In this document: positions 14,620 to 46,191 of the stretch, one piece after another
Layout: each line of letters opens with the position of its first letter
How positions within the stretch are numbered: the first letter of the stretch is position 1
Source of the DNA: Spirogloea muscicola
Taxonomy: Eukaryota; Streptophyta; Zygnematophyceae; Spirogloeales; Spirogloeaceae
Length of the DNA stretch: 46,392 nucleotides
Assembly: GCA_009602725.1 (NCBI GenBank)
Contig: WELB01000006.1
Span: 487,634 to 534,025 of the forward strand
Direction: 5' to 3'
The notes under the pieces: model-generated
What the model was told of the DNA's origin: nothing
What the model saw: the letters and a program-made list of their open reading frames with translations, nothing else
Databases searched by the model: none
Translations under genes and position numbers: made by a program

Positions 14620-14964
14620 GGTAGGAGCTGTTAAAACGTGCCAATATTGCAGGTTGCCTCGGAGTTGCCAATGAGGCAACAGAGTGCAAAGGCAGGAAAG
14701 TCTGGCAGTGCGAGCCTGGCCTGACAGCAAACAAGAGCAGTGTCACAGTAGGCAGGCGCGCGGGCGCAAGCGGTGCGGGGAGAGCATCGACGCCCTTGGG
14801 CGTGCGCGCAGCTCCTCCGCGCGCCGGGGGCGGCGAGCAGCCCGGCGAGGCCTAGGAGCGGAGGTCGCTGCGTTTGTGCAGTGCGGAGAACTGCAGCTGC
14901 CACTACCTCTGGAGGAGACTCCGCAGCCGGCGCGGATCCCATTGGAAGAGGAAGAAAGGGCTCG

Positions 14965-15212
14965 CCCATTGAGGATAGGGGCTGGAAAGGCCAGCCCAAA
15001 AAAGAAGGAACAAAGTACGAGAAGGGGGCCAGGGGAATCGCTAAGAAAACAAACACAACAAGAAACAAAGCAGCCACGTATTTAAGCAGAAGAAGTGGCT
15101 CTCCCAATGGGGGCAAGGGCTGTGAGAAGCCAGCCCGAAAAGAATTGACAAGGTTCGAAGGGGCCAAACTACGAGCTAAGCAGCGACTGCGGGGCCTGAA
15201 GAGGCTATGCAG
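14965..15212 (-). repeat. Minus-strand copies of the fold-back repeat and retrotransposon 3' tail
   Basis: At 15078-15212 the minus strand nearly repeats the 29671-29850 tail (the same GCTTAGCTCGTAG, CTTCGAACCTTGTCAATTC and GGGCTGGCTTCTCACAGCCC landmarks). At 14965-15008 there is a second short unit with GGCTGG...CCAGCCC. The long open frames here are by-products of this repeat. Confidence 0.6.
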
Positions 15213-24423: not shown

Positions 24424-25109
24424 GCTCGCACGCCCGGCGCAGCCAGCGGCAAGGCGCTCAGCGCCGCCGAGCCGGCGGCGGCGGCCGCGCGCCCGCGCAC
24501 AAGGCGATNGAGGTGCGGCGCGCCCGGTGCTGGGTGGCGGTTGCGCACGCCGCCGGCTGCGGTACCGCTGCGGCGCTGTGAGCGGCTTTTGCGCAGGAGG
24601 CCGCCATGGCGGGAGTCGGGGGAGCCTTCGCCGTGCCGGGGAGGTCGGCTGAGGAAGGTTCGGAAAAGGGCTGGCGGGTGACGGCGGGGCCCACGAGCAG
24701 CCACCGTGTGCAGGCGTCAGCGAGAGAAGTGCGCGTCAGCGGGGCCGGCAGACGGTGGGGTTGGCTACTTCTTCTTCTACTCCGCTGTCGCCTTACCTTC
24801 AGACCTTGTCCATTCTTTTGGGCTGGCCTCTCCCAGCCACCAGTAAATCTGGCCGCGCTTGCTCCTTCCCAAAAAATGGTTGGGCTTACGATGCACAGCC
24901 TCGCCCCTTTCGAATGAGCTTACTTCTTTCCATTGTCTGTACAATGTATTGGCTTGAGACGGCCATGCTTTCGTTTCATGCGCACCGATCGCGTTCTCAT
25001 CTTTTCCACAGCCATTGCCGTAGATTGGAAGAGCTCACTTTCTCGTCGTGGCCTCGCCATTGGCGGCGAGTCTCAGCGATGCCGGCCTGCGACCCGGGGA
25101 GACGATAAC
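24424..25109. other. Dioxygenase upstream region with a fold-back repeat
   Basis: The first ~300 bases are very GC-rich and probably include the dioxygenase promoter. A fold-back repeat lies near 24806-24842 (CCATTCTTTTGGGCTGGCC then TCCCAGCCACC). The 24940-25060 part resembles other repeat tails (TTTCATGCGCACCG, GGAAGAGCTCA) also seen near 15330. Confidence 0.45.
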
Positions 25110-26786: not shown

Positions 26787-27020
26787 GCAAGCGCGGCCAG
26801 ATTAACTGGTGGCTGGGAGAGGCCAGCCCAAAAGAATGGACAAGGTCTGAAGGAGTCGGAGTGCTAAGGACTGAGACAGCAGTAAGCGAACTCTCAGTAA
26901 CCTCTCGTCAGTAGATGCAAGTCTGAGTAGCTAGCAGGCGGAAAGACGTCGCCCTGACGGAAGCCGGAGGCCGCCGCCAGAGCGCGGCCTGCGCGCAAGT
27001 GGACCGCAAAAGCTAGGGAC
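26787..27020 (-). repeat. Left arm of a 234-bp inverted repeat beside the assembly gap
   Basis: This is the reverse complement of 27562-27795; I saw one mismatch by eye. On the minus strand it carries the end of a retrotransposon ORF (stop at 26894-26896), including GRALAAASGFRQGD, and then its 3' tail with the GGGCTGGCCTCTCCCAGCC fold-back. Confidence 0.9.
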
Positions 27021-27030
27021 CGCTGCACAG

Positions 27031-27561
27031 NNNNNNNNNNNNNNNNNNNNNNNNNNNNNNNNNNNNNNNNNNNNNNNNNNNNNNNNNNNNNNNNNNNNNN
27101 NNNNNNNNNNNNNNNNNNNNNNNNNNNNNNNNNNNNNNNNNNNNNNNNNNNNNNNNNNNNNNNNNNNNNNNNNNNNNNNNNNNNNNNNNNNNNNNNNNNN
27201 NNNNNNNNNNNNNNNNNNNNNNNNNNNNNNNNNNNNNNNNNNNNNNNNNNNNNNNNNNNNNNNNNNNNNNNNNNNNNNNNNNNNNNNNNNNNNNNNNNNN
27301 NNNNNNNNNNNNNNNNNNNNNNNNNNNNNNNNNNNNNNNNNNNNNNNNNNNNNNNNNNNNNNNNNNNNNNNNNNNNNNNNNNNNNNNNNNNNNNNNNNNN
27401 NNNNNNNNNNNNNNNNNNNNNNNNNNNNNNNNNNNNNNNNNNNNNNNNNNNNNNNNNNNNNNNNNNNNNNNNNNNNNNNNNNNNNNNNNNNNNNNNNNNN
27501 NNNNNNNNNNNNNNNNNNNNNNNNNNNNNNNNNNNNNNNNNNNNNNNNNNNNNNNNNNNNN
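27031..27561. other. Assembly gap (531 N)
   Basis: Unresolved bases. The gap sits exactly between the two arms of the inverted repeat, as expected if a palindrome or two opposed element copies collapsed the assembly. Confidence 0.99.
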
Positions 27562-27688
27562 GTCCCTAGCTTTTGCGGTCCACTTGCGCGCAGGCCGCGC
27601 TCTGGCGGCGGCCTCCGGCTTCCGTCAGGGCGACGTCTTTCCGCCTGCTAGCTACTCAGATTTGCATCTACTGACGAGAGGTTACTGA
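27562..27688 (+). pseudogene. C-terminal fragment of a retrotransposon ORF
   Basis: The open frame reads out of the gap with HLRAGRALAAASGFRQGD and ends LLTRGY-stop. It matches the ORF ends at 26716 and 29640. The 5' part lies in the gap. The following bases to 27795 are its 3' tail and form the right arm of the inverted repeat. Confidence 0.75.
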
Positions 27689-27795
27689 GAGTTCGCTTAC
27701 TGCTGTCTCAGTCCTTAGCACTCCGACTCCTTCAGACCTTGTCCATTCTTTTGGGCTGGCCTCTCCCAGCCACCAGTTAATCTGGCCGCGCTTGC

Positions 27796-28340
27796 TGCAT
27801 TGGAAGAAAGTGCTCGCCCGTGGAGAAGAGGGGCTGGCAGGGGAGAGCCACTTCGGCACCTTCGGCACCTACTTTCGGCACCTTCCTCACTCGTAACTTC
27901 TTAGTGGTCCATCCTCCACCCGCTCTGCCATAGCGTCAGGCCCCTCCGTTATTTGGCCCCTTCGAACCTTTGTTCCTTTCGAGCTGGCTTTTCACAGCCC
28001 TTGCCCCCATTGGATACTGAGCTCCCCTCTGCATCGTCTTGTGTCTTGTAGTAAAGTCCTTCTCCGGCTCCTCTTTCTTTGGCTTTGGACATTGTCCATT
28101 CTTTTTGGGCTGGCCTTGCCAAGCCCTCTTCTCTAAGGGCGAGCACCTTCTTCTTGCCCGCATTGGGAGAGCCACTTCTTCTACTTCGGCTTTTGGATAT
28201 TGTCCATTCTTCCCTGGGTTGGCTTTGCCAGCCCCTTTCCTCTAAGGGCGAGCAATTCTTGCAAAGTTGCTCCGAGTTGCGGCAGCTGACTCGGAGTTAC
28301 TAAGCTCCCACTCGGTGTGGTCTCTTGCATATCTGTGTGG
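27796..28340 (+). repeat. Cluster of retrotransposon tails and fold-back repeats
   Basis: At least three repeat units follow each other: 27948-28012 (TTTGGCCCCTTCGAACC, GAGCTGGCTTTTCACAGCCC), 28090-28130 (GGGCTGGCCTTGCCAAGCCC) and 28193-28235 (GGGTTGGCTTTGCCAGCCCC). Each can fold into a short stem. The arrangement suggests nested or tandem insertion of truncated copies. Confidence 0.6.
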
Positions 28341-28365
28341 TCTTAGCGCCTTCCTTTTATAAGCA

Positions 28366-28933
28366 ATGCCCTCCTTGCAACTCCTCCTCACTCCTTCTCA
28401 GCGCTTGCCCAAGCTGGACGAAGGGGCACAGGCAAGACTCATCGCAGCAGTCAAAAGTGAGCGTTGCAAGACGCTGAGGAGGATGTCAGAAATGGGGACC
28501 AAAGCGAAGAATCTAGATCGACTTACCTCTCTGGCAACACCTGGGGCTACCGACTGGCTCACGACTCGCGCCATCCACAATGCTTCTAAGATCAGCCTCG
28601 AGGCTTATCGGACGCTCCTCCAAATGTTCCTTGGCCTGGCCCCCACCTGCCAGAGAGTATGTCAGTGTGATGCGGCTTTCACGCGGAGGGCGGAGACCTT
28701 GCTTCGCATATGCTGCGATGTCCCGTAGGCCCTGCATTGGTGGGCGAGTTCAAAATGTACTACGGGATGCCCTGGCGGACTTGATGGGTGACGCCGGCTA
28801 CCGCGCCATTGTGGAACTGAACAACATTGTGCCCATCACCACGGATGCTCAGGGACGCCATCACCGTCATACCCTAGACATTGTGGGTGTACAACCTGGC
28901 GGAGGGCCACGAGCCTTGGTCGATGTGCTTTAA
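28366..28933 (+). pseudogene. Second retrotransposon fragment (zinc knuckle and PD-(D/E)XK-like region)
   Basis: The first frame (28366-28728) ends with CQCDAAFTRRAETLLRICC, a CCHC-like knuckle matching the one near 26010. The product then continues in another frame to 28933 with LRDALADLMGDAGYRAIVE, RHTLDIVGVQPGGGPRALVDV, parallel to the RADLVAIPPGGGPRIIADV stretch at 26200-26270 but strongly diverged. A frameshift and a stop break it. It stands for a related but separate subfamily. Confidence 0.65.
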
Positions 28934-29160
28934 TGGAGGCGTACAAGAGTCCAGCATTGACCCACATTGCTGGTCACGCAGTGGGAAGTGCAGAGCGAGG
29001 AAGCTGTAGCACTACTGCCACCAGCTAAGGCTCGACCAGCTTTCTGGTGCAAGCATGAGCTTGACCTTGCTGCAAACAGGCTGACACCGGACGTCGCGAA
29101 AACAACAGATAGGCTGCATCGAGGACCCGTGCAGCTAAAGGTGGTTACTTAGCGGGTGAT

Positions 29161-29640
29161 GTGCATCTGTCAATGCGCTTGCCTTCGTACTTGGCCACTC
29201 AGGCCCCTCATAATTTACATTCAAACTCCATTCCCCTTTTGGCAAACCCGGGGCTTTCTGCCTCGCGGGCTGGCCACGCTGCGGCGAAGGCCGCTCGCAG
29301 CAAGGCGGCCAAACACGCCGACCACCCGGCTGCCGATGAGTTCGTCCCCCTGGCTGTGGACGTGCACGGGGCTCTCGGATCCCACTGGCTCAACCTGTTG
29401 GCCAGGCTTGCACGGCGCGCTTTGTCCCGCAGGCGTGGTGAGCCGGCTGACTTCAACGCCGCTGGCTCGTGGGCTCAGGTGTATCGTATGCGCTTGTCCG
29501 TCTCCCTCCAGCGGTCCATGGCCCACGCCTTGCATCTGCGTGCTGGCCGTGCTCTCGCTGCGGCCTCCGGCTTTCGTCAGGGGGATCGTTTTCCGGCAGC
29601 TAGTCTGTCGGATGTGAGGCTTCTTACTCGTAACTACTGA
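29161..29640 (+). pseudogene. Third retrotransposon fragment: C-terminal domain
   Basis: A 159-codon open frame whose last ~110 residues (LAVDVHGALGSHWLNLLARL, VYRMRLSVSLQRSMAHALHL, GRALAAASGFRQGD, LLTRNY-stop) match the C-termini at 26716 and 27688. It lacks RT and nuclease parts, so it is 5'-truncated, but this stretch is intact and may be recent. The conserved domain is basic and probably binds nucleic acid (inference). Confidence 0.65.
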
Positions 29641-29850
29641 GTGGTCCATCCTCCCCCCTTCTGCCATAGCCTCTTCAGGCCCCACAGTCGCTGCTTAGCT
29701 CGTAGTTTGGCCCCTTCGAACCTTGTCCATTCTTTTTTTGGGCTGGCTTTGCCAGCCCGTCTTCTCTATGGGCGCGCACTTCTCTTTCGGGCTGGCTTCT
29801 CACAGCCCTTGCCCCCATTGGGAGAGCCACTTCTTCTTCTTCTGTTTGCA
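29641..29850 (+). repeat. 3' tail of the retrotransposon
   Basis: It starts right after the ORF stop and contains two hairpins, GGGCTGGCTTTGCCAGCCC near 29742-29760 and GGGCTGGCTTCTCACAGCCC near 29790-29810. Copies of this tail occur at 1-118, 15078-15212 (minus), 27948-28012 and 43990-44112, which makes it the reference 3' end for the dispersed family. Confidence 0.7.
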
Positions 29851-30113
29851 CTCGCCTCTGCTTGAACTGTGTATTGGCTTGTATTGGCTTGGCCCCTCTT
29901 CTCTCTACTGGGAAAGTCTCTCTCTGTGCGCAGCCACGGGACACCGAGCCAAGCACGGGGGCTCGTCACTCCGCTGCCGCCATTTCAGCTCCGCCAGGTC
30001 GCACCCCCGCTCTCGCGCCGCCGGAGCCGCCCGAGGTGCCCTCGCAGAGCGGCCGGCGGCCGCGGCGCACGCTGCCTCGCCGGAGAGCCGCCGGCATTGC
30101 ATTGCGCGGCCCC
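29851..30113. promoter_or_regulatory. Short upstream region of the magnesium chelatase H gene
   Basis: Only about 260 bases separate the retrotransposon tail from the chosen CHLH start, so the promoter is short or the element lies within it. The sequence is GC-rich from 29940 on. The ATG at 30114 sits in CCCCATGGCT, a good eukaryotic start context. Confidence 0.4.
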
Positions 30114-33100
30114 ATGGCTGCAGCGGCGGCGGCTGCGCCGGCCGCGTCCGGATGCGGCTCCCGCCTCGGCCGCTGCTCTGCGACGGGCGATCGGCGCGCC
30201 CATTCCGCCTGCCGGGCGGAGCAGCTCGGCTGGCGGCACGGCGGACAATGGGGGCGGGCGGTCCGGCTGAGGCCCCTGAAGATCAGCCTCCGGGCAGCCT
30301 GCCATGCATATGCTCCTCGGGCAGTGCTGGCCGACAAGCCAGCGGCTGAATCCACCCGGGCGACGGATGTTCTCGATGTAGCGAGCTCAAATAGCAGTCC
30401 TGCAGGTGTGGAGGACATCACACTGGATAATCCCGCCACAATTCTGCAGCAGCAGCAAGCACTGTTCGAATAGCACAACACTGTAATGCAGGGATAGCAA
30501 TTTATTCGGGGTAGGACCAAGTATGTACTGTGTGTCCATAAGCGCAGTTCCTACGCTCTACTGCCTGTCCATCACGTAACTACTTCACAGCATGCCAATG
30601 CTTGCAGAGTTGTTCATGGCTGCTGTTGAGGCCTCTGAGGAACTGGCTAAGGAGCTCCAGCACAAAATCGATGCAAAGATGTCCCAGATACAGCAACTCC
30701 AGGAGTCCATTGACTTACTGTACAGGGATACCTTCTCCAATGTACCCGTCAAGGGGAAAGGCCTAGCTGCAGATGAGCAACAGGCCCAGGAGGGGTTCAC
30801 AAAGGTGTTCAGTGAAGTAGATGAGGGCCTGTGGATGGAGCTGGGCAGGTCTGAGCCCATAGTTTTGAAGGCTCTCATTGGTGAGTAGCCAGTCTCTGCG
30901 CACCTTGAGTGTATAGCCTGTCAGTGCTCTGTCAGTCAGGGCCCAAACATGCCCAGCGAATGGGTCATCTCCGGTGCCTCTGCCTGACTATAGTTGGCCA
31001 CTTCCATGAAGCAGCACAGCAAAAACCCGTCTCTCTATGTTCTTCCAGTAGTCATGTCCTATTATAGGCATGAAATTTTGGTGTTTCGATCACAACTCTA
31101 GGATTGTGTGGCCTGCCTACAGACGTGTCAGCGGCCAGTGTTGCCAGACCATCCTTAGTGAGCCCGTGCTAAGACAACTGAACCCCCTTTGGTCCACAAT
31201 TGCAGGCTCGGTAGACAAGGCCAAGTGGGCAGAATTCCAAAGGCAGATCCACACAAAATCTCTCACAAGAGATAGGGCACGCAAGGTTTGCCTCCAGTAC
31301 CTTTTAAGTATGACACTTCAATTAAAGGCAGACAATGCAGAAGACATACACTGCACCCAATGATACGTGCAGCTTGTAGACTTGCAAGTCTAGGGCTGGT
31401 ATTGCTTCGGCTACAGTTGCTGTACGAGCAGGTTGCAATTATTTACCAGCCTTCTACCAGCTGACGAAGTATAAGACATCTACACAACTCCTTCGCACAC
31501 TAACTTTGGCTATCGTTCAAGTGGAGTAGGAGTTGCTGCTGCTGAGGACTCAGCTTGAAGAGACTCTGGCTATTACAGCAGCGGTGTGTAGTGCATGCCT
31601 CATGACACCCTGCTCTATCTGGCAATATATATATAGCACTCGATCTGACTGTTCAGCTGTCTATGAAGTTGATCATCCCAAAGCTACTGCTGCGAGAGAG
31701 GAGTGACAATTGACAGTCCTCTTCGTACGTCCACAGCCTATCAGTGGGGACGACATGGGTGATGAAGCTGACAGTTGGACCAGGGATGGCAAGAAGCAAC
31801 AGGCAGGTGCACATGGCTCAAGAACAGACAGGTGTTCAACACAGGAAACCAGCATTGTCCTGATTTCAGGATTTGAATCCTTCAACGTCGAACTTTACAA
31901 GAAAGCTGGGGCTGCTTTCACTTCTATCTGCCCAGGTGGAACTGATGTTCGTGGAGAAGAATGCCCTCTAATTTAGTCAGCATTGTCATGGTTGCCTGAA
32001 ATGTTTCATGGGTGATGTGGCTGCCTGACTTGAACCACGATGGTGGTCTTCACAAAGCAAGTGCTTTGGAGGAAAGAAAGACTGATGTAGAATCTGATGA
32101 CTTGATGCCACGCTATCCCAAACAAGCGACAACCTTATCCTTTTCAAATGAATTCTGCAGATGTCAAGGTTCACATCTTCAGTGACAGAGACCTTCTTAG
32201 CAAGCGCCAAGAGGTGTGGCCTTTTTCCAAGTCACTGCTGTAAGTCTGTCATCTACTAGCAGGTTCTTGTACTTTGTAGTGAATGCCAAGCATCAACTGA
32301 ACCTGACCTTCCTGATGGTAATGTCTTTGTGTACTGTCTACACACCCAACAGCATATAACCTGCACCAATCATGCCAGACACCTACCTTGTGTGCTCTAT
32401 TCGTTATGCATCTTTCCCCTCACAGGTAGAAGCAAAATTGGCCCAAGCAGATGTCTTCTTTGGTAGCTTGCTCTTTGACTACGACCAGGTAAGACAAGCA
32501 ACCGCCATGTGCTCACTCGCTTACCAGGGTTCGTGTAGATGAGCCCCCCTCAAAGCCGGATAAGCTTAAGTGGAGGGGATAAATACATGTCCTGCTATGT
32601 CAAAATAATGGATTCTTTGCTTGACAACTCCTGCTCCCTTGTGATATTGCTTGCTGATTTATCCTGCTGCTAAGGTTGCTTGTCGTGGTCACCCAAAAGT
32701 CTTCCTTACGCTTACCAGCATAGCATCTCCCCTCAGGCAAGTGCTTGCTTGATATGTTAGCTTGGCCTGATGACTGGCACCTGCAGTGTGAGTGGCTGCA
32801 AGCAAGAGTAAATCACATACCAGTTCGCCTCTGTTTTGAGTCTTCCCTGGAGCTAATGTCCACAACGAAGATCGGCAGGTGCTCCTTGCAACAGCAATAG
32901 CTCCCAGATGCTTGCATCTTATCTCCTCCCATATGGCACCGACTTAGATTTAATGTAGGCCTCTGGGAGGTTATGAAGACCTTCCCTTTTCCAGTCTAGC
33001 TCTTGAGATGGTATATGGTCCTCTCCCACTTTGGTACGTCCTGACTCACCCCATACAAGACTAAGTATAGTACAGTGTAAGACACGCCAAGCAAGAAAGG

Positions 33101-36100
33101 TCCATTGACTAAATGGCCTGCCTGCTATTCTGAACATCTGGACCTCTGCAACTTGCTGCACAGCTTCACAATGGGTGGTAAGGAGCAGAAGAAGGGCATG
33201 CCTGCTCCAATCAAGGCAATCCTTGCCAAGTTTGGGGGAGGAAAGGAGGAAGACAAAATGGTCTTTTTCACTCTACATTCCCTCTTCCTCCTGTTTGCAA
33301 TACTTCTCTTAACAATGCATGTGAGCTATCTTATGCATCCACAGTGTGCAACCACTCTACCCTGAGGCAATCATAAAGTGTGGTCGAGCAAGATTATTGT
33401 CTGCACCAGGGTGCATCTACTACCTAAGTCTACTCTCGTGCGTGATCAGGTGGGCTACTTAAGCTTTCTGAAAATTGGGCCAAAGCTTCTGCGATTTGTT
33501 CCTGGGCAGAAGGTCCGCGATCTGCGTAATTGGCTCACTATCTATGGGTACTGGAATCAGGTGTAGTCCCAGAACAATTCACTGCTCACTTGCTTTCAAC
33601 TCCCAGGAACTCTTCATGTAGACGCTCTTTTGATCAAGCAACACTGTCTGATCGATACCAGTAACAGTGTACCAGAAGAGATGCTGCACCATTAAGATTA
33701 AGTCAGCAGATAACGTGAGTTCTGGTTGTAAGCATCCCCTTCTTCGGTGCTAAGATTGACATTCAGAAAACAACAGGGAGGCATGGAAAATGTGATGAGC
33801 ATGTTCAGCTATCTGGCGGCTGAGTACCTTGGCAAGACTGGCTTGCCTAAGGTCACTGTGAAAGAGACTCCAGCCCTGGGAGTCTACCATCCTGATCACG
33901 GTTAGTCTGCATATCGTACATCCTTTGAGGAGCCTCCGATAGATCTGGAGATTTAAGCTATCTGACTATGTTGTAAAGTAGGTGTTGAAGGGCCATGACT
34001 GTGCCCGAGTTTCTGCTTCTTGGTGTGAAATTCTTAGCACCTGGCAGATACAGACACTTGTATTAACGGTACTGGGCATAGTTGGTCTCACCAATGTCTT
34101 ACTGATGCCAGGAGATTATTTCACGAATGCTCAGGATTACTTGAAGTGGCACAAGACTCTCTCAAGGTTGCCTCAGAATGCCCCAGTGGTGGCTGTTCTG
34201 CTATACAGAAAGCATGTCATTACAAAGCAAAAATACATACCCCAGATGATCCATATGTTTGAGAAGGAAGGCATCAAGCCTGTCCCCATCTTCATCAATG
34301 GCGTGGAAGCCCACACGGTCGTTAGAGATTTGCTGACATCAGTGCATGAGCAGGTGTGCAGCTCAACATAATATCCAAAGGATTACAATGACACTAAGCG
34401 AGTATGTAGGATTCACCGGCCAACCTCTTCTCTGCCTTGCGCTGAAGGTTTTGCAATATCAGTTGCCATTAACCCTGGTTTTGAGCACCACTTTATGCAG
34501 GAGTTTAGGAGGAATGGGATAAAGGCTATAACGTCTTTAAGCAAGTCTGCTGTCACTGTGGACGCTGTTGTCAGCACGATAGGTGAACCACCACTGACAA
34601 GTGCAAGGCCCCTGTTTGAGCACAAAAGTGACCTGCTGCTTCCTCTTAAGCGAAGCAATGCTCCTGCTATTTGTCCTCGAGTGCTGGGAATATTAGTAGT
34701 CTGTTAAGTCAGTCAACATCTCAGTGATGTATGCATGCATGAACTATGCCACACTTTCTACTTGTTCGCAGGTTTCCCTCTAGTAGGTGGACCTGCAGGC
34801 ACCATGGAGGGTGGACGGCAGGCAGAGGTATACATCTCTTGATTTTACTTCCCTGCAGTTTCAAATTTATTATACTGCGTACATCGCTTTCACAAACACC
34901 CTATGGCAGGCGTTCTTATAATGTTGCTGGAGTGCTGACTAGGTACTAAATTTGTTAACTGCGTGTTCCAGATTGCCAAGAGCATTCTACAGGCGAAGAA
35001 CCTTCCGTACATAGTGGCGGGGCCCCTCCTAATACAGGACATTCGCAGCTGGCAAAGGGATGGTGTGCAGGGACTGCAAAGTGTCGTCCTCTACGCCCTG
35101 CCGGAGCTTGATGGGGCAATAGATGCTGTGCCCCTTGGTGGGCTTGTTGGGGATGGCATACACCTGGTACTGACTCGCTTTTGGTCTCTCGCATGCTGAA
35201 CGGTAGCTGTTTGGGATTTGTCTTGCTGTGGCAACAACTCTGCATTGATTGTCCTTTGTAGCAAGAGTTGAGAGTATACATGCACTTTGATCGATTGGTC
35301 AATAACCTGCTTCAAGCACGTGCAAAGAGGGCAGAGGAACAACAGGTGGTGTGCTCTGTATGCTTCTGAAGTTAGGAGCAGGGGTCCTGGCTTCAAGTGA
35401 GTGACACTGCTTTCAATACAGACTCTGAAGTTGCTATCAGAGCCTCAGAGCTTTGAGTACGTAGTAGATCACTTGGCTATACAGGTGCCTGAACGGGTTC
35501 GGAAGCTTACGGCGAGGCTAAAGAGCTGGGTCAATCTGAAGAGAAAGCCAGTCTCCAGGCGAAAGGTGAGATCCAATAAACAATCTGGCGTGCCAGGTGG
35601 ATTTTGCCAAGCTGGTTCTGGTGTAAGTTGTGCTTGACCACACATGTGCTTAACCATGTTAATACTTCAGAGGAGCAACTTGCAGGAATGTGAGAAAGGC
35701 TGTCCTAGTCAATTTGTTGCCTCCTTTGCACAGACTTGTACATATCAAGGCTCCTTCTTGCCTTACATGTGCAGGTTGCTATTGTTCTATATGGCTTTCC
35801 TCCCGGCGTGGGAGCAACAGGCACAGCCGCACTGCTGAACGTGCCCAAGTCGCTGGAGAGGCTTCTGCAGAGGCTTAAGTCGGAGGGGTGAGTGCAACGG
35901 TCATTCAAATGTATCTTTGCTTGCCAAATTGTTGGATGAGATATTGTTGTCGCTTGTCTTCAAGCGCTGGCCTGCATGGTGTGTTTGGTGCATGTCATAA
36001 TGGCTTGTCGCTCGTTGATGTACAATGAGATGTGTCGCTCGTGGATGTACAATGAGATGCGGATCTTGTTGCAGGTATGATTTGGGAGACATGGAAGAGT

Positions 36101-39100
36101 CAATCAGCGGCGAAGACCTCATCCTCCTTCTCAAGGAACTCGACCAGGACAGGGTGGTCTCTCTGGGAGAGCAAGGGGTGGAGCTGGCCTTGAAGACAGT
36201 GAAGGAGGGTGCTTTGTCAGGCGTTCATCCAGTAGCTCACTCAGTAGGATGGCAGCAACTAAGAAGTTGGATTGGGTAAGTATCACATTTGAGCCCAAGG
36301 GTCTGGAACATGCTCAGTAGATGCACTTTCCCTCAGAAATGTCAATCATCTTATGTCTGATGCTCCTTTGGTAGCTTACTCTTATTTACAGCTGATTTCT
36401 TAGAGTTACCATACTGACTTGAATCGATTCAGTGAGACACTGACTGGGCGCATGGAGAAGGCATGGGGGCCCCTGCACAAGTACCGTGGCATTTGCACAG
36501 ATGCAGACGGGAAAAGTGTGGTCAGTGGTCTCCAGCTAGGAAACGTCTGGTATGTTTTTTGAAGGTCAAGCACTGCTGCTGCTATGCTGTCTTGTTTGCT
36601 TCTATCATCTGAAATAATGGGCTAGCTCGTTGGCAACACGATATCAAAGTACCGCTATCTCCCGTGGTCTCGCTGTTGGCCATATGCTAAGCTCACCTTC
36701 ACATGTCACCCTGTGGGAGCACAGTCTTATTCTGCACTATGAGTAGCACTGATACTGCTATATCAACATGACAGCGTTGATGGTGGTCGTGCTCAGGATT
36801 GGTGTGCAGCCGCTTCTGGGCCTTGAGGGCGACCCCATGCGTCTCCTATTTGAGAGAGACCTCACGCCACATCCACAGGCATGTAATCTGCTCTCTCAGA
36901 CATTACCCGAAGCAATCTACAGGAGCCTGTTGACAGACTGCAGCACAATCCCAAGTCCCAGTGCTCAGTATCGTGTGCCCTTCTCTGTGCAGTACGCAGC
37001 ATTCTACAAGTGGTTGCAGAATGAGTTCAGGGCAGACGCCCTGATACACTTTGGGATGCATGGGACTGTAGAATGGTTGCCAGGCTCCCCTCTGGGAAAT
37101 ACTGGCTACTCCTGGTCTGATGTTCTGATGGGCAACATTCCAAATTTGTAAGCAATGACACATCAAGCCAGACACAATTGGCCTTCCTTCCTTCAGCCTG
37201 GTCACAAGCTGCAGTACTTTGCCAAATGCTTGTGCCAAATACTTGGCACAAGCATTTGGTAAAGTATTCTATAGCTTGTTGTATCTTCATAGCTCCACCT
37301 TGACGTCCTTGGCATTGTTCTATGGCATGCTATTGTGGCCATAATGCGTCATGGCAATGATAGTATCTAGCTTTTGACAACTGCAGGTATGTCTACGCAG
37401 CAAACAACCCCTCAGAGTCCATTGTTGCAAAAAGGAGGGGTTATGGCACCATCATCTCATATAATGTTCCACCCTATGGGAGAGCTGGCCTTTACAAGGA
37501 GCTTGCCTCACTTCGTGAGCTGGTATGTGCAGCATCAGGCTTTGTGGTCTTTGGACTGATTCTCTGTGCAGTCGGCTGTGCTGACAATCAAGACCTGAAT
37601 TCTCGGCCACTTGCAGACTTTCTTGACTTGTTTGTGTGCATCTCATGTGTAAGAGAAGGTACACAATTACAGCACATATGCAGGCACCTCAAGGTAGCCC
37701 CTCGTGGTTGCATGCAGATAAGCGAGTCCCGCGAGGATCCAACCAAGAATGAGGCCTTAAAACCTGTCATCATCTCCACTCTCCTCTCATCTGGACTCCA
37801 GAGCGACTGCCCTTTCCGAGAAGCTTCATCAGCAGGAGGGCAGTCCTATATGCTGACAAACCCAGAGGAGGAGGTTGACACTACAGAGTTTGATGCATAC
37901 TTGGGCAGGCTTCAGAGCTACTTGGTACAGCAAGCTTGATAGACCTGTTCACAGGGGATTGCTAATAGTATGCTGTGACAAGAAGGACTAACTCTGTTTG
38001 TGCATGTTGTTGTACCCCACACAACCGCATTGTCTCGTTTGACCACCACTGTGTCATGTGCTAGCTGTGCAACTGCTGTTGTATTTCCATTGCATCAAGG
38101 CTCCTTTAATTTCGATTCCACTTCGATGGCATGCATATATATCATGTCGCACACTGCTCTTCTTTGTGCATAGGCTGTTATTGAGAGTCGTCTTTTCTCT
38201 GAAGGCCTTCATACCCTTGGTGAACCACCTTCTGAGGCGCAGGTAAATATCCAGACTACTATGGCTCATAACGTTCCATTGGCAGCTTACATCACTGTAG
38301 TTGCCACATGATTCAGGAGGTGAATTGTAAGCCGTGAATAAGCCATGAGCCCTGCAACACTGCATAAGTTGTTGTGCCTTAGGGGTCAAACAGTATGTGT
38401 TTCTTACGTGAGCAAATGGGTTACTGATGAATCAAGTGATTACCACCTGCTAAGCAAAGGTGACTAAAGATGACTATGTGGATTTTTGAATCTGCGGGCT
38501 CTGCCAGACGAGCCAGTACTTGAGTGCCTACTTTGGAGATGACATCCAGGAGGAAGTCGTAGAGGCGGTTTCCACTACTTCCGGGACCACAGCTGAGGTA
38601 ATATGTCAAGTGCTGATAGTGCATGTCACCTGCTCTGTTAGCTTGTTGTTGTTGGCACACTGGCAACGTTTGATGAGATTGACAATGTACAGTCCTTTAT
38701 GGGGTTCAACCTGCAGACAGATGTGCAAGATTTATATATTGTGCAAGATTTCATGCTGTGTGCACAAAATGTAGGTGAGGAGAAAGTTGGAAGAGCTCTT
38801 CCTCCAGAGCAATGACAGATATCAAATCCGAAGCGAAAGCTTAGACAAGAGGATGGAGGATGCGGTGATGATCAGGGATCTGCTGCAGCAGAATACGGAT
38901 GAGATGACAAACTTGATCAAAGGTCTCAATGGTAGGCTTTGTACACCAGCAACTTAAAGCAGTCCTCATACTCTTCTTTTTTTCTGGGCTGGCCTCTCAC
39001 AGCCGCCGCCCTCTCCTGGAAGCGTCCTTCTCTCAAACTTAGTCCTTTTCTGACTACACTCTGCTGCTTTGAAGTGTTCCATCAGTACTACTTGCTTTGT

Positions 39101-42100
39101 TGATCCGGTTGAAGAGGTCTTGCTTCTTTGTTCAAACAGAAAGATGTCTCTTGCTTCTTAGTTCTCACCGCTTTGTACTTCTGAGTCTTAAGTATCTATC
39201 TCTGTCCGTTTCCTAGGTGATTATGTGCCGTCAGCTGTGGGTGGGGACCTTCTCAGAGATGGACCAGGCGAGCACTCTCGCAATTGCAGCAGCTTTTCTG
39301 TTCAGCTTATCACCACAAACCCCCTGCACATGCATCCCTGAGAAGCACCGTACATGCAAGTATTAGTCAATAAGCTAGAGGTTTGAGCTCAGATGAGGAT
39401 TAGTGGTGTCGTTGCTGGCAGGTGTACTGCCAACTGGTCGAAACATCCATGCCCTTGACCCATACCGAATGCCTTCAGCAGGTAGTCTACCATGCCATGT
39501 ACTTCGCTCTTCCTGTTAGGATGTGTCAATTGTTTGACTCTGCACCGCTGTGCCCTTGACAGTCACCGGCTCTTAACATACTGCAATAAGACAGAGGTTT
39601 ACGCTTGTTGACGTTGCAATAGCAGACATGCATTGTGATTTATCAGAGTATGTCACCGGCCTTATCAGCGGCCTCATACATCGAGAAGTCACATGCATGT
39701 CCTTTTTGCAAGTCTGACCCTGTCCTGTGAGCTTTGCCTGGGCTCCTTATTGCGCGTGGCCTTGCCAGCTGCCTGGGAAAGGGGATGTGCCTTGGCAAGC
39801 AACATCATAGATCAGCACAGAGAGCAGAATGGCGGACAGTATCCAGAAACAATAGCAGTCATGCTCTGGGGCTTGGATGCCATCAAAGTAAGGGCCAGAG
39901 CTCTTTGCAGTCTGTTGTTGTCCAATATTTTCTGCAGAAAAGTGCCATGTAAGCAAGGAGCATTGGGGCCAACTAAGACGAGCCTCAGAATATGTGCAAT
40001 TTTGATGTTCAAGTTGGGTTAGCTCCATGCAGTATATGGTAGTCGTCCCTTGTCATTAGTGTCATCCACCAGAGGCAGGTACTTAAAGCTCATACTGTGT
40101 GACTCGTTCATGCTGGCAGACAAGAGGCGAGTCTGTTGCCATTGCCTTGGCATTGGTGGGAGCTTACCCTGTCAGAGAGGTCAGTTTGCAGGCAGCATGT
40201 CCCTGAAGGTGACACCATCTCTAGTACGACTGACTGAGCAGAGTTGTGGAAGGCACAGTACATCTTGGATTGCATCAGGAGGCTCCTTGCTTTTGCTGTG
40301 ACAAGATGCTGAACAGTTGCATGCTGTCAAATGAGCAGGGCACAGGCAGAGTAGTGAGGTTTGCGCTTACGCCACTGGAGGAGTTGAAAAGGCCTCGTGT
40401 TGACGTCCTTGCTAACATGTCTGGCATCTTTCGGGACAGGTATCACATTCACCTTCATTTACTGTTTCCAGCATCCCTCTTGTCCTTCTTTGGAAGCTTT
40501 TCAATATATTGTCTTGAATGTGTGCAAAGGGCATGAATGGTGCACCTGTACTGCTCAATCGATCTCAGGGCTTTCGAGTCATCAGAGCCTGCATGTAATT
40601 GTTTTGTGCTAGCTGTGCAGCTTTGCCAATGTAGTTGAGTTGCTGGATGATCTCTTCCAGCGGGCGGGCGAGGCAGATGAGCCTTCTGAGATGAATTTTG
40701 TACGAAAGCACTCCTTAGCGCTTAAGGTATCCTTTGGTTCCTGGTCTGTTCCTCAACACGTTGAAGCTCCTGCTGGTGTATGCGATGATTCCAAGGAGAT
40801 CTGACTTGGCAGTCTTGGTCTGGAGAACTGTCATTCTCATGCAATTTTCCGCATGCTTGTGATACATGAGAAGACATGGTGTCAAGCATGGTTCTGGTTC
40901 TTGAGAGCATGCCAGTTGTTGCCGTGGTCTGTAAAATCTTGAGCTCAAAGCATTTCTTATTCTCTCCCCCTCCCAATGTCAGGCGCAGGGTGTTGAGGTT
41001 CCAACGGCTCGTATATTCTCCAATCCGGCTGGTGACTATGGTTCGATGGTGAATGAGAGAGTTGGAGCTGCAGACTGGTGAGCCGCTTGTCTTGTGGTGT
41101 CCACTGTAGCTCAACAAAGCAGGGCCAGCAATCAGTGCACTTCATGCAGGAGACAAGTATTTTTTACAAGACCAAACATTTTAGCTTTTACTGCACAGGG
41201 AAAGCGGAGCCGAGCTTGGTGAGACTTGGCAGTCACGAAATAGCTTCAGCTATGGCAGGGGGGATCGAGGCACTGCCCGACCAGAGGTTAGTCACAATAA
41301 GCGTTGAATTACGAATCAGATATTGATATCTTCCATCAGGTGACATCAGGTGACTCACTGATTGCATGTTGCTTTCTGCTTCCAGATTACTAATTTTGCT
41401 TTTTCTGGTATATGTTCACTCCTGACGCACTGTCTGCCCATGTGATCTTCCAGGTTCTCCAAGAACTCCTCAGAACAACGGATCGAATTGTACAGGAGAT
41501 CGACAGCGTCGAATACGGCCTGACTGACATACAGGTGAGCTAAACTGATTAGCTTCATTGCAAAACACAAGCTGGCAGGATAGAGCAAGGTGATCGAAGT
41601 TCTAATGAGCATTGAGAATCTTGTTTGTGTGATAATCAATCAGCAGCAAGCGCTTTCCTCGTGGATTGGGATGATGTTCTGCTGAAGTAGACTCAATTAT
41701 ATCCTCATCATTTGCTTGGGACAGGAGTACTATGCAAATACTGGGGCAATGAAGAGTGCAGCAGAGACAGCTCGCTCAGGAAGAGAGGTGCAGTACATTG
41801 CCTGGTCAACTGCCTCGCAACTGTCTTTTGCGTGACAGCTGCGGGTGCCTTGTATGGCAACGGATGTGCTGTGCATACCAAGTCACTGCATATTGTTGTG
41901 CATGATGTGACAGGTGTCTTGCAGTGTTGTCGAGACTTATGGAAAGGACCTTATGCCTCGTGACTTGAAGTCCACTCTCAAGATTGAGTATCGATCCAAG
42001 GTAACAACGGCGTAGCAATGCGCGAAGCTTACAGCTTCAGGAAGAAGAGCTTGCGAGATTGCATTGCACTAATTTGACCTGCTGCTATTGGATGCTTAGC

Positions 42101-43121
42101 AGCATTGAGTGTATTCGTGTGCACTGACATGGTACCGTCTGAGCCTCACATCCAGACATGTACGTCTACCTATGCTGCCAGCAACCACAAGCATCTTGGC
42201 TCTGGAATCTAACATTTCTGCCTCACTTGTCAGCTTCTAAATCCGAAGTGGGCAGAGAAGATGGCTGCAGCTGGCTCAGGTGGTGCTTATGAGATTTCTC
42301 AGGTGCTTCTCTGTACTGGGAGAGTGCACCAATAGCACATCAACAGTTGATGAGCCTTGATGAGCCAGCTAAGGCAGATTAATGTTCTGTCGATCCATGG
42401 GGTACACTAGATGGTTTGCTACACAGAAGAATTTGAGCACATGCCAACATGTGGCATAAGTCCAGCCATACGATGCGCATGTTTGCTGAGTGGAGGATTC
42501 AACCACGCAGTTCACAAGCATCTGCTGCTTATCTCTCCAGAGAATGACTGCGCTGCTTGGCTGGGGAGGGACTGCAAATTTTAGGGAGGATTGGGTCTAC
42601 AACCAGGTTTGGCTGTCCTCTCGTGCTGGTATGATCTGCTCGTGATCTCTTGCTGCTGGCTACAACATGCAGACATTTTGGGCTAGAGCATAGAAAGTGA
42701 GATGGAATCCTCACTGCGCTGACAGGCCTCAGAGACCTACACGTTGGATGACAAGATGGCTGCTCAGCTTAGGAAGAACAACCCTCAGGTATGCCTCTGA
42801 CATGGTAGAACTAGCTTAAGTTGGGCATGCATAAGGAATGGTTCGCTGCTCTTGCAAGCTCTGCAGTTGTCGACTTTGGAGGTATAGATTCCTCCTGAGT
42901 GTCAGCGCCTCTGAAATGGGGTTACCGGTCAGTATTCTTTATTCATTGTTACCACCCATTCATTACACGGCCTGCAGGCATTTCAAAACATCGTGAAGAG
43001 GATGTTGGAGGCAGCTGGCCGTGGCCTGTGGGAGAACCCGGACCCTTCCACACTTGAGAGGTTGCGAAATCTCTATGCTGAAGTGGACGAGGAGCTAGAG
43101 GGAGTAAAGCAACTTGCCTAG
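30114..43121 (+). CDS. CHLH2: Magnesium chelatase subunit H, BchH-like (CHLH2 type)
   Basis: The large porphyrin-binding subunit of Mg-chelatase, which inserts Mg2+ into protoporphyrin IX with CHLI and CHLD in the plastid. 42 exons join without a phase break to 1585 aa. The start (MAAAAAAAPAASGCG) suits a transit peptide. Exons 1-4 (30114-30405, 30608-30880, 31206-31285, 31530-31583) give a 233-residue extension with a coiled coil. The BchH-like body starts in exon 5 (31737-31935, SIVLISGFESF) and shows HIPVRLCFESSLELMS (32787-32878), FPLVGGPAG (34772-34827), LYALPELDGAI (34972-35166), LYGFPPGVGATGTAALLNVP (35775-35887), IGVQPLLGLEGDPMRLLFER (36797-36878), HFGMHGTVEWLPGSPLGNTG (36993-37147), YAANNPSESIVAKRRGYG (37387-37522), LPTGRNIHALDPYRMPS (39422-39481), WGLDAIK (39769-39887), IDSVEYGLTDIQ (41454-41534), LNPKWAEKM (42234-42302) and LEAAGRGLWEN (42978-43121, stop). 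GTVEWLPGSPLGN is BchH/CHLH2 type; plant CHLH1 differs there. Introns after 36878 and 39267 use GC donors. Confidence 0.93.
36005..36058. repeat. Two-copy tandem repeat, period 27, in a CHLH2 intron
   Basis: The unit TGTCGCTCGTTGATGTACAA occurs twice with one T/G difference, in the intron 35888-36074. Confidence 0.8.
36879..36992 (+). other. In-frame GC-AG intron of CHLH2
   Basis: The upstream exon ends ...LTPHPQ with CACAG followed by GCATGT; no GT donor is available. The next exon starts YAAFYKWLQ after a CTGTGCAG acceptor. The 114 intervening bases are 38 codons with no stop, so retention would add 38 residues. BchH-type proteins run directly from PHPQ to YAAFYKWLQ, which supports splicing. 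Confidence 0.75.
37213..37268. repeat. Hairpin: 26-bp stem with a 4-base loop in a CHLH2 intron
   Basis: Left arm 37213-37238 and right arm 37243-37268 pair along their whole length; as transcribed there are two G-U pairs and the rest are Watson-Crick. The loop is ATAC. It lies in the intron 37148-37386. Confidence 0.9.
38974..39032 (+). repeat. Fold-back repeat inserted in a CHLH2 intron
   Basis: A T-rich run, then GGGCTGGCCTCTCACAGCC, then GCCGCCCTCTCCTGGAAGCG, the same phrase as at 15584-15635 and 43915-43960. It lies in the intron 38932-39216, on the sense strand of the gene. Confidence 0.7.
39268..39421 (+). other. Second GC-AG intron of CHLH2
   Basis: The exon ends GATGGACCAG and the intron starts GCGAGC; no GT donor fits nearby. 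Joining after CCA G to GTGTACTGCC restores DGPGVLPTGRN, the expected BchH order, in phase 1. Confidence 0.75.
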
Positions 43122-43914
43122 TATTCACCATCGTGAGGCAGAATACCTGCGTCCTCCCAACTGCTTGACATTGTTGAGTCCCAGGCTTTTGACTGGAGAG
43201 GCCCGTCAAGTCAACTGCCTTCGTGGGGCACAGCTGCGAAGTGCTAATAGAATCAGGACCTCAAGCAGCCCCTTGACGGGCTACCATATGCCACTCAAGG
43301 ATGGAGCTGCTGTGTAAACGGCGGATGCAGTCAAAGGGGTTGCGCAGAGGAGTGCACCTCCTTGCTACTTCAAAGTGGGTGCCACACAGTAGGTGCCACT
43401 CAGAGAATCAGCTGTGGTGGCAGGACCGTGTAGCGCTGCAGCAGCTACACCATGGTGGGCTTGGGTGGTTGCCACGAGAGGGTGAGCAGACTTGGCTGCA
43501 AGAGCGGGCGTTGTAAGGTGGCTGTGGAAGCCAGCCAAGTGCGCACGCCCACCGGGGAAGTGCTCCCACAAGAGCGGAGGCTGTGATGGCAGCCACCGCT
43601 CGAGAAGGTAGACAGCAGGGAAGAGGTCGGGACTGCAGACGACAGGGCCATCGGGGCCTGCATAGACGGGGCGTGTAGGGGCGCGCAGCAAGAGATGGTG
43701 GTCGTCGATACCGGACGTGGTTGCGGAGGCCAGCGGTGTGGGCAAGGTGGTGGGGGCGGAGGCTGTGCCGGCGCCGCTGCTGAAAGCTCTGGGCGTGGAT
43801 GGGCCCTCCCGCTCACACAGCGCTGCTCAGCTTGAGTAGCCGGAGCGAGGCAGAATAATGCGGCTGCTACTAGCATTGAGAGAAAGTGGCTCTCCCAAAG
43901 TGGCTCTCGTGTCT

Positions 43915-44112
43915 GAACTGGCCTCTCACAGCCACCGCCCTCCCCTGGACGCGTCCTTCTTCCCAAAGGGGGCGGGGCTTTGTACTTGTACAGGCCCCTT
44001 CGTAGCTGCTTAGCGCTTTTTAGGCCCCTCCGTCATTTGGCCCCTTCGAACCTTTGTCAATGCTTTTCGGGCTGGCTTTTCACTGCCCTTGCCCCTATTG
44101 GGAGTGCCACTT
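43915..44112 (+). repeat. Fold-back unit followed by a retrotransposon 3' tail
   Basis: The first unit reads CTGGCCTCTCACAGCCACCG then CCCTCCCCTGGACGCGTCC. The second begins near 43990 with GCCCCTTCGTAGCTGCTTAG, then CCCCTTCGAACCTTTGTCAA and GGGCTGGCTTTTCACTGCCC, matching the 29671-29850 tail with many small changes. Confidence 0.6.
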
Positions 44113-44593
44113 CGTCTTTGTACAGCCAGCCCGTAAGCAGTTGACGAGGTCCGAAGTGGCAGAAGAAGCGCGCGGCTGTAAAGGAGCGGCCGTGATAACC
44201 AGCCAGGTGCATGCCAAAGAATGTAGATGACTATTGTAACGGAGCCTAGAAGAGCAGAAAGGAAAGGCGGGGAGCGGGCCGCAGGAGTTGGCCCGTGGCA
44301 GCCCCACGCCCACGCGACCCAAGGGAAGGCACGCGATAAGGTGCACGTGACTGCCGCCCAGGCGAAGGTTCGAGGCGCCGGCTGTCAGATCTGCCGTGCC
44401 GGGACGGATCCTCCCTCGGGCGGAGCCTCCCCCAGCGTCCGTACAAGAGGCTTGGTCAACGGCGACCTGCCGCCCCGCGCCTGTCGCCGCGCCGACGCTG
44501 GCGTGTCGGCTTGCGGGCCAGGGGCCCCCGCTCGTGCGAGCGCCGGGAGCGTATCGCCGGGGGGATGCCGTTGGGCCCCGCGGGTCGGCTACT

Positions 44594-45045: not shown

Positions 45046-46191
45046 ATGGCTCGCCACGCCGTCGCGCTCCTCGTGCTCGCTGCCTTGGCCGCCTTTGGCG
45101 CCGGCACCGCAGGTCAGCCTTTCCGCATGCAGTCTCGCAGGGTTGCTCTGGTGGCCCTCTGCTCTTCCCTTGCTTGCTGCTGTCGCGACTATGTAAGCAC
45201 ATCTGTCTTACATCTGACAGTGGGAGCTCTCTGTCTGTGCCTTGCGCTCGTCTTCCAGATGCTCAAGCCACTATCCAGTGGAAGTTGGGCCTCAGCAAGA
45301 CAGACTTCAGCAGAACGATCAAGGCTGGACAGAGCGTCACCTGGGTGTGGGCGGATAATAATCCACATGCTATCCAAGGTAGTCCAAACAATCCGACTGA
45401 GCACTTCTCGCTTCTTAGTTGGTAGACGTTGGTAGCCGTTGCCAAGAGTTTTGTAACAACAGAGAGAAGCCGGGAGGTGCGCATGAAAGGAGAAGGGGGT
45501 GAAGCGAGCGACTACGAATGTTATACCAAACAGAGAACCATGTGAATCATGTGAGACTAAGAAGGGTTCTGACGAGGAGTATGCACGGTCCAAACGGACA
45601 GCCAACACATGGTTTGCAGAGGTCGTGCCTCTCTTGACTCCACTCTCCTGTCCCTCCAGATTTGTCTCGCAAGCAGAGCTACACAGGTGCCGGAGGAGGA
45701 TCAAATTTTGTCATCAAGTCTGGCTTCAAGTATACACATGTGTTCAAGACTGCTGGCTCTTACCCGTACCAATGCTACATCCACACGACTAAAATGACAG
45801 GCGTCATCACTGTCTCCGGTACATTGCCTCTGACCTTTGCTACTCGAAGTTAGTCAGTAAATTTAGCCCTTTCTCTTGCCATGGCACAGATTTCAGTGAG
45901 AGACAACCTGATAACTGTGTATCCTTGCTTATTGGGCTGCCTTCACTTGTACAATAGCATGTGCCACAGTGCATGTGGGAGTCGACCAGTGCTCAGAGCA
46001 CGTTGTGATGTGTAAGATGCATTCAGCTTCAGTTTGACTGGCCCCACTAAAACAATTCATATTGCCCTTCAACAGGTGTAGCATCCAAGAAGAGCCCACC
46101 ACCAAAGAAGGGGGTGAAAACGCCTCCAAAAAAGTCCCCTTCTAAGAAGCCCCCTCCAAGAAAGGGCAAGAAGGGGACCAAGCACTTGTAG
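45046..46191 (+). CDS. Secreted cupredoxin (plastocyanin-like) with a Lys/Pro-rich tail
   Basis: A small blue-copper-fold protein. Four exons join in phase to 153 aa: 45046-45112, 45259-45378, 45660-45818, 46076-46191. Residues 1-22 (ARHAVALLVLAALAAFGAG) are a clear signal peptide, so the mature protein enters the secretory pathway or, less likely, a thylakoid lumen. The core shows WKLGLSKTDFSRTIKAGQSV, then NNPHAI with the first copper His, then AGSYPYQCYIHTTKMTGVIT with Cys, His and Met in a C-x2-H-x3-M spacing, which completes a type 1 copper site. The last exon encodes a 38-residue tail of Lys, Pro and Ser (KKSPPPKKGVKTPPKK), extensin-like and very basic. An electron carrier or copper protein at the cell surface or wall is plausible. 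It is not the photosynthetic plastocyanin, whose sequence and leader differ. The final exon boundary is supported by phase. Confidence 0.85.

Follow-up and report, generated by a model that had tools for sequence, protein, structure and literature searches.

Two isoforms of the Mg-chelatase H subunit, ChlH1/CHLH1 and ChlH2/CHLH2, have already been published from cyanobacteria and green algae, in two studies (PMC10156173, PMC6078071). In Chlamydomonas, a third study reports that CHLH1 is co-expressed with chlorophyll genes and that CHLH2 is not (PMC8226298), which makes separate control of the CHLH2 isoform plausible. An H subunit carrying an added part also has a precedent, in the GUN4-CHLH fusion transcripts reported from dinoflagellates (PMC10156173). 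The literature covered leaves open what the second H subunit does in green algae, and no N-terminal extension or coiled coil on an algal H subunit is described in the literature searched, outside which most subscription papers lie.

Here we analyze a stretch of 46,392 nucleotides from Spirogloea muscicola (hereafter, the window), in which an H-subunit-like body is preceded by four exons that an initial annotation had joined to it as an N-terminal extension. We favor, with a probability of about 0.7, a single nuclear gene at 30114-43121 that would encode a plastid CHLH2 of ~1557 residues with a helical N-terminal extension. The locus is best read as a known isoform with an extension that is not seen in its cyanobacterial kin.

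A full-length H subunit of the ChlH2 type

The body occupies 31737-43121 of the + strand and consists, in a corrected model, of 37 exons encoding 1324 residues and ending at a TAG at 43119-43121. Including the extension, which contributes 233 residues, the corrected gene has 41 exons and 1557 residues, and its body introns are 114-318 nt long. A first model, drawn by eye from chelatase-like peptides, had 42 exons and 41 introns of 76-325 nt (39 GT-AG and two GC-AG, the GC-starting ones at 36879 and 39268), and its body reading frame was intact, with no stop across 38 exons. The two models differ by a dubious coding stretch on the + strand at 35262-35484 (35262-35345 plus 35422-35484), an insertion of 49 residues that is present only in the first model. 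We removed it because cyanobacterial ChlH2 lacks it and because it used the two shortest introns. This in-phase stretch could be a lineage insertion or an exon called in error; 35262-35348 is still predicted when the exon search described below is trained on the whole body, but not when it is trained on either half.

This body represents a complete ChlH2-type H subunit of Mg-chelatase. It scores 1392.8 bits against the BchH equivalog profile TIGR02025 (cut-off 829), and two other H-subunit equivalogs fall below their cut-offs (943 vs 1300 and 793.7 vs 1166). Pfam places DUF3479 (154 bits, cut-off 27.4) and CobN-Mg_chel (283.1 bits, cut-off 24.5) in the N-terminal 918 residues of the first model. 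A scan of bacterial and archaeal genomes gave 107 relatives, from which 80 loci were kept, all of them cyanobacterial, and the body is 52-60% identical to these ChlH2 sequences. As comparison rows we used the best 18 of 24 PF02514 matches from six of the same genomes, and we named them ChlH1 or CobN according to score and tree position. The ChlH1 rows (L087-L091) are 31-33% identical to the body, a further one with a broken frame (L093) is 36% identical, and the CobN-like rows (L081-L086) are 25-32% identical. In the tree, the body falls inside the ChlH2 clade with support of 100/100, a placement that its long branch makes less sure. Of 257 positions diagnostic of ChlH2 vs ChlH1, 205 have a ChlH2-like residue in the body, 10 a ChlH1-like one and 42 neither. 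The body also retains 551 of 637 near-invariant positions of ChlH2, together with 274 of the 289 that both isoforms share. The body had initially been described as BchH-like, and while its identity as an H subunit holds, the assignment can be sharpened from a generic BchH to ChlH2.

Exon 5 (31737-31935, + strand) encodes a linker of ~39 residues, which contains an ATG at 31755, followed by the first ChlH2 strand. Counting from this exon, residue 40 of the protein is where homology to cyanobacterial ChlH2 typically begins; the usual cyanobacterial start is an ATG three residues before that position, and the cyanobacterial proteins typically begin 2-4 residues ahead of the match. In 75 of the 80 cyanobacterial loci, an in-frame stop closes the frame 3-35 codons before the match begins. 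Thus, cyanobacterial ChlH2 has neither the extension nor the linker. Among the remaining five, four (L034, L059, L068 and L080) reach the end of their contig, and in L046, where the match starts late, a stop immediately precedes it. The premise that BchH/CHLH proteins begin shortly before the first chelatase strand is therefore borne out, for cyanobacteria only.

The extension resembles none of the families against which it was compared. Two Pfam scans gave nothing over the cut-off, with SKA2 and DUF641 below it, and no NCBIfam family exceeded its cut-off; a 54-residue plasmid-maintenance model at 17.1 bits, against a cut-off of 100, was rejected as a chance match. The PDB contains no convincing relative (best E 0.28). 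Viral contigs held no relatives of the extension and no match to the N-terminus of the body, and the rest of the window and 98 fetched loci likewise lacked any relative of the extension. A search of 194 genomes of the cyanobacterial phylum was also empty, a result which, having no positive control, shows nothing.

Splicing and coding signal of the upstream exons

All four upstream exons lie on the + strand. Exon 1 (30114-30405) provides the start codon and an Ala/Arg-rich, transit-peptide-like N-terminus in 97 codons plus 1 nt, and exon 2 (30608-30880) encodes a long helix that shows a coiled-coil pattern over four heptads and is followed by another, less certain helix. Exon 3 (31206-31285) encodes a charged segment, SVDKAKWAEFQRQIHTKSLTRDRARK, and exon 4 (31530-31583) a Leu/Glu-rich one, ELLLLRTQLEETLAITAA. 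Intron 4 (31584-31736, + strand, 153 nt) forms the boundary between extension and body. The four introns are all GT...AG, their cumulative phases of 1, 1, 0 and 0 carry the frame into the body at 31737, and the joined reading frame contains no stop across 233 residues. The initial annotation had proposed these exons and phases together with a length of ~230 residues; all are present letter for letter with valid GT/AG ends, as are both of the peptides that it quoted. The first 70 residues of exon 1 include 19 Ala and 11 Arg but a single Asp and a single Glu, and ATG 30114 is the first Met of an open frame at 29706-30473. The donor of intron 4 scores 3.1, above 4 of 37 body sites, and its acceptor 4.61, above 13 of 37; the acceptor preceding exon 4 is the weakest of the extension and scores below all 37 body acceptors.

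Codon scores for exons 1-4 are 0.16, 0.25, 0.10 and 0.23 per codon, set against a leave-one-out mean of 0.20 for the body exons. The signal in exon 2 is frame-specific, at 0.25 per codon vs -0.25 and -0.42 in the other two frames. In exon 1 the remaining frames are positive too, and GC-rich parts of the window have high codon scores in several frames and on both strands. High GC thus confounds the codon score of exon 1, and the case for this exon depends on where it lies, on its start codon and on its splice site.

We then searched for the best-scoring chain of exons using splice, codon and length terms (priors on both exon and intron length), blind to the exons of the initial annotation. Trained on the corrected body and run over 29900-31736, the search returned exactly the four exons, including exons 3 and 4, with a score of 29.73. 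This score was reached by none of 676 controls (0/300 GC-preserving dinucleotide shuffles, 0/300 intron concatenations and 0/76 antisense pieces), which places the four-exon chain proposed initially beyond chance. Training on the first body model gave the same four exons at 29.67, and here the controls, which included an extra 300 shuffles confined to 30406-31716, again fell short (0/300, 0/300, 0/300 and 0/76; 0/976 overall). An earlier search without length priors had produced a path of many tiny exons, matched by 11 of 200 shuffles and 0 of 200 intron mixes; it was replaced by the search with priors.

Support for the chain is concentrated in exons 1 and 2, with exons 3 and 4 contributing -1.3 and +1.6. 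Taken alone, the exon 2-to-body link scores 3.14, a value that 14 of 1000 shuffles and none of 1000 intron mixes attain. It is thus weaker than seven comparable links within the body, themselves part of the training material of the search, which score 12.4-20.7 (0/100 shuffles each) and have their exact exons recovered in six of seven cases. In whole-gene runs, all four extension exons were recovered after training on the entire body or on its 3' half, and three of four after training on the 5' half, in which exon 4 was trimmed to 31554-31583. The same three runs recovered 34, 29 and 32 of the 37 body exons exactly, so that the whole-gene search misses or misdraws 3 to 8 of them.

When the search was begun at 28900, exons 2-4 were kept, the start of exon 1 moved to 29934 and an exon at 29173-29613 was added. 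This longer chain outscores the four-exon chain (44.15 with first-model training, 45.81 with corrected-body training). We set it aside because the added exon sits in a repeat-rich, GC-rich upstream region; it is discounted for this location and not for its score. This leaves the 5' end of exon 1 provisional.

The surroundings of the gene have several further features. Directly upstream, 27562-29843 is a mobile-element-like region with dispersed short repeats on both strands, many of which hold GGGCTGGC or its like and CATTGGGAGAGCCAC; further copies lie near 1-154, 14951-15209, 24796-24863 and 44022-44118. Overlapping open frames of up to 175 codons at 28363-29640 (28363-28728, 28517-28933 and 29113-29640) match no Pfam family over the cut-off and are possibly the remains of a retroelement. 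An assembly gap, a run of N at 27032-27561, is flanked by a 234-base inverted repeat with 99.6% identity between its arms (26787-27020 and 27562-27795), so that the gap forms the center of a palindrome. Downstream, a gene at 45046-46190 has a signal-like start, a plastocyanin/azurin-type copper-binding domain (PF00127, 28.6 bits vs a cut-off of 21.2, for a splice drawn by eye) and a tail rich in Pro and Lys. This plastocyanin-like neighbor, the chlorophyll gene itself and its numerous spliceosomal-type introns indicate a green alga. An Rfam scan of the window found nothing over the cut-off.

One gene or more

The fusion suggested by the initial annotation survives in part: the four exons most plausibly form the 5' end of the chelatase gene, with a transit-peptide-like exon first. 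Their splice sites and intron lengths are of the same kind as those of the body. Within 29000-32200, GC content peaks at 30001-30400 (0.82 and 0.68), and it is 0.47-0.49 around 31.7 kb; the repeat region at 29201-29600 is also GC-rich (0.64 and 0.68), and a GC-rich stretch (0.61-0.77) precedes the plastocyanin-like gene at 45046 as well. Against a single gene we count the start contexts, as ATG 31755 has G at both -3 and +4 and ATG 30114 has C at -3, as well as the shuffles that match the exon 2-to-body link, the poor acceptor of exon 4, the alternative exon 1 found from 28900, and the tendency of the search to predict one body exon that cyanobacterial relatives lack.

The region could instead hold two genes, one for a small plastid protein and then a separate CHLH2 that starts at ATG 31755 or in a short first exon of its own. 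The upstream gene could comprise exons 1-4 up to a stop near 31703, where the reading of exon 4 past its donor ends, or exons 1 and 2 up to a TAG at about 30886, two codons past the exon 2 donor; the latter is a possible variant that goes beyond the alternatives considered initially. Such a division would suit the good context of ATG 31755 and the fact that exons 1 and 2 carry nearly all of the chain score, and an ATG exon at 31360-31431, capable of an in-phase splice to 31737, would give the protein a 24-residue start, MIRAACRLASLGLVLLRLQLLYEQ, which is basic and hydrophobic and might be a targeting peptide. That exon is at the level of chance, however: the best ATG-started chain in 30889-31736 scores -4.8 and is equalled by 124 of 300 shuffles. 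A protein beginning at ATG 31755 would have an acidic start unlike exon 1, with four Asp and two Glu in 39 residues, and no GC-rich start accompanies it near 31.7 kb. A splice joining the two parts would be in phase, with ordinary intron lengths. Nor does TGTAA, which we take to be the chlorophyte poly(A) signal, occur between 30482 and 32239; it is present on the + strand at 43313-43317, 192 nt past the stop codon of the chelatase. This is weak evidence, as the window contains 41 such sites, or about one per 1.1 kb, and only about 0.8 would be expected by chance in 30888-31755. On balance, the separate small gene that the initial annotation offered as its alternative is disfavored, and we regard two genes as unlikely.

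The contrast in start contexts also raises the prospect of a single bicistronic message on which leaky scanning would let translation of CHLH2 begin at ATG 31755. A study of green-algal bicistronic nuclear transcripts describes a weak start context at the first reading frame and advises a strong one at the second (PMC11291117), a pattern that the weak ATG 30114 and the strong ATG 31755 would fit. However, 13 AUGs, 10 of them out of frame, lie between the two on the spliced message, and an added AUG lowered output from the second frame in that work (PMC11291117). The splice between exon 4 and the body would also have to be skipped or shifted, and we consider this arrangement very improbable. 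A different kind of objection grants the single gene but would make the extension a long precursor stretch, composed of a transit peptide and a spacer, that is removed during import and plays no role in the mature enzyme, with exons 3 and 4 perhaps partly misdrawn. The extension has no known domain, and exons 3 and 4 are weakly supported and show no significant heptad pattern, which are points in favor of such a stretch. The four-heptad pattern of exon 2 and its confidently modelled helix speak against it, since such features are unusual for transit peptides. Such a role-less extension seems quite unlikely, and the single gene with a helical extension remains the reading that we prefer.

The predicted coiled coil and comparison with known H subunits

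The initial annotation had described a heptad-like segment and a Leu/Glu helix in the extension, and a heptad pattern is upheld for exon 2 and not for exons 3-4. On a heptad scoring scale devised for this analysis, the exon 2 helix has hydrophobic residues in the a/d pattern over four heptads, a score reached by 4 of 2000 residue shuffles, and the pattern in exons 3-4 is unremarkable (204 of 2000). A single-sequence structure model of exon 2 (mean pLDDT 69.8, pTM 0.40) forms a helix at residues 2-43, confident to about residue 40, with a second helix that is unsure.

In the single gene that we favor, exon 1 would supply a transit peptide and so probably direct import into the plastid. Exons 2-4 would encode the helical extension, ~137 residues long and containing a four-heptad coiled coil, from which the ~39-residue linker would lead into the full-length ChlH2-type H subunit, with extension and body presumably translated as one chain. 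Judging from the coiled-coil pattern, the likeliest role of the extension would be to pair CHLH2 chains or to dock them to a plastid partner. As a proposed consequence, the second H subunit could be controlled separately from CHLH1. More tentatively, and in our view doubtfully, green-algal CHLH2 may have a built-in coiled-coil module, matching no family searched, that oligomerizes or docks the porphyrin-binding subunit and thereby separates this isoform from CHLH1 in the place or timing of magnesium insertion. A testable module of this kind would offer a handle on how the second H subunit is recruited or restrained. Should the extension prove to be shared by green-algal CHLH2 proteins, it would also reveal how a subunit that has relatives in cyanobacteria was adapted to the plastid.

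Several described systems bear comparison with this locus. The dinoflagellate GUN4-CHLH fusions are alike in that an H subunit is joined to another segment; a Pfam scan of the extension plus the N-terminal body, however, found no match to a GUN4 domain, and we do not class the locus with them. ChlH1/CHLH1, represented by structures such as 4zhj, belongs to the same subunit family, and the 401 residues that begin at the first strand match 4zhj with an E of 2.5e-31; yet the body shares just 31-36% identity with ChlH1 of the same genomes and sides with ChlH2 at 205 of 257 diagnostic positions. A third system is ChlH2/CHLH2 itself, known from cyanobacteria, prasinophytes and chlorophytes (PMC10156173, PMC6078071). 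The likeness lies in the body, at 52-60% identity to the cyanobacterial members, whereas the difference lies in the 233-residue extension and the ~39-residue linker that precede the first strand.
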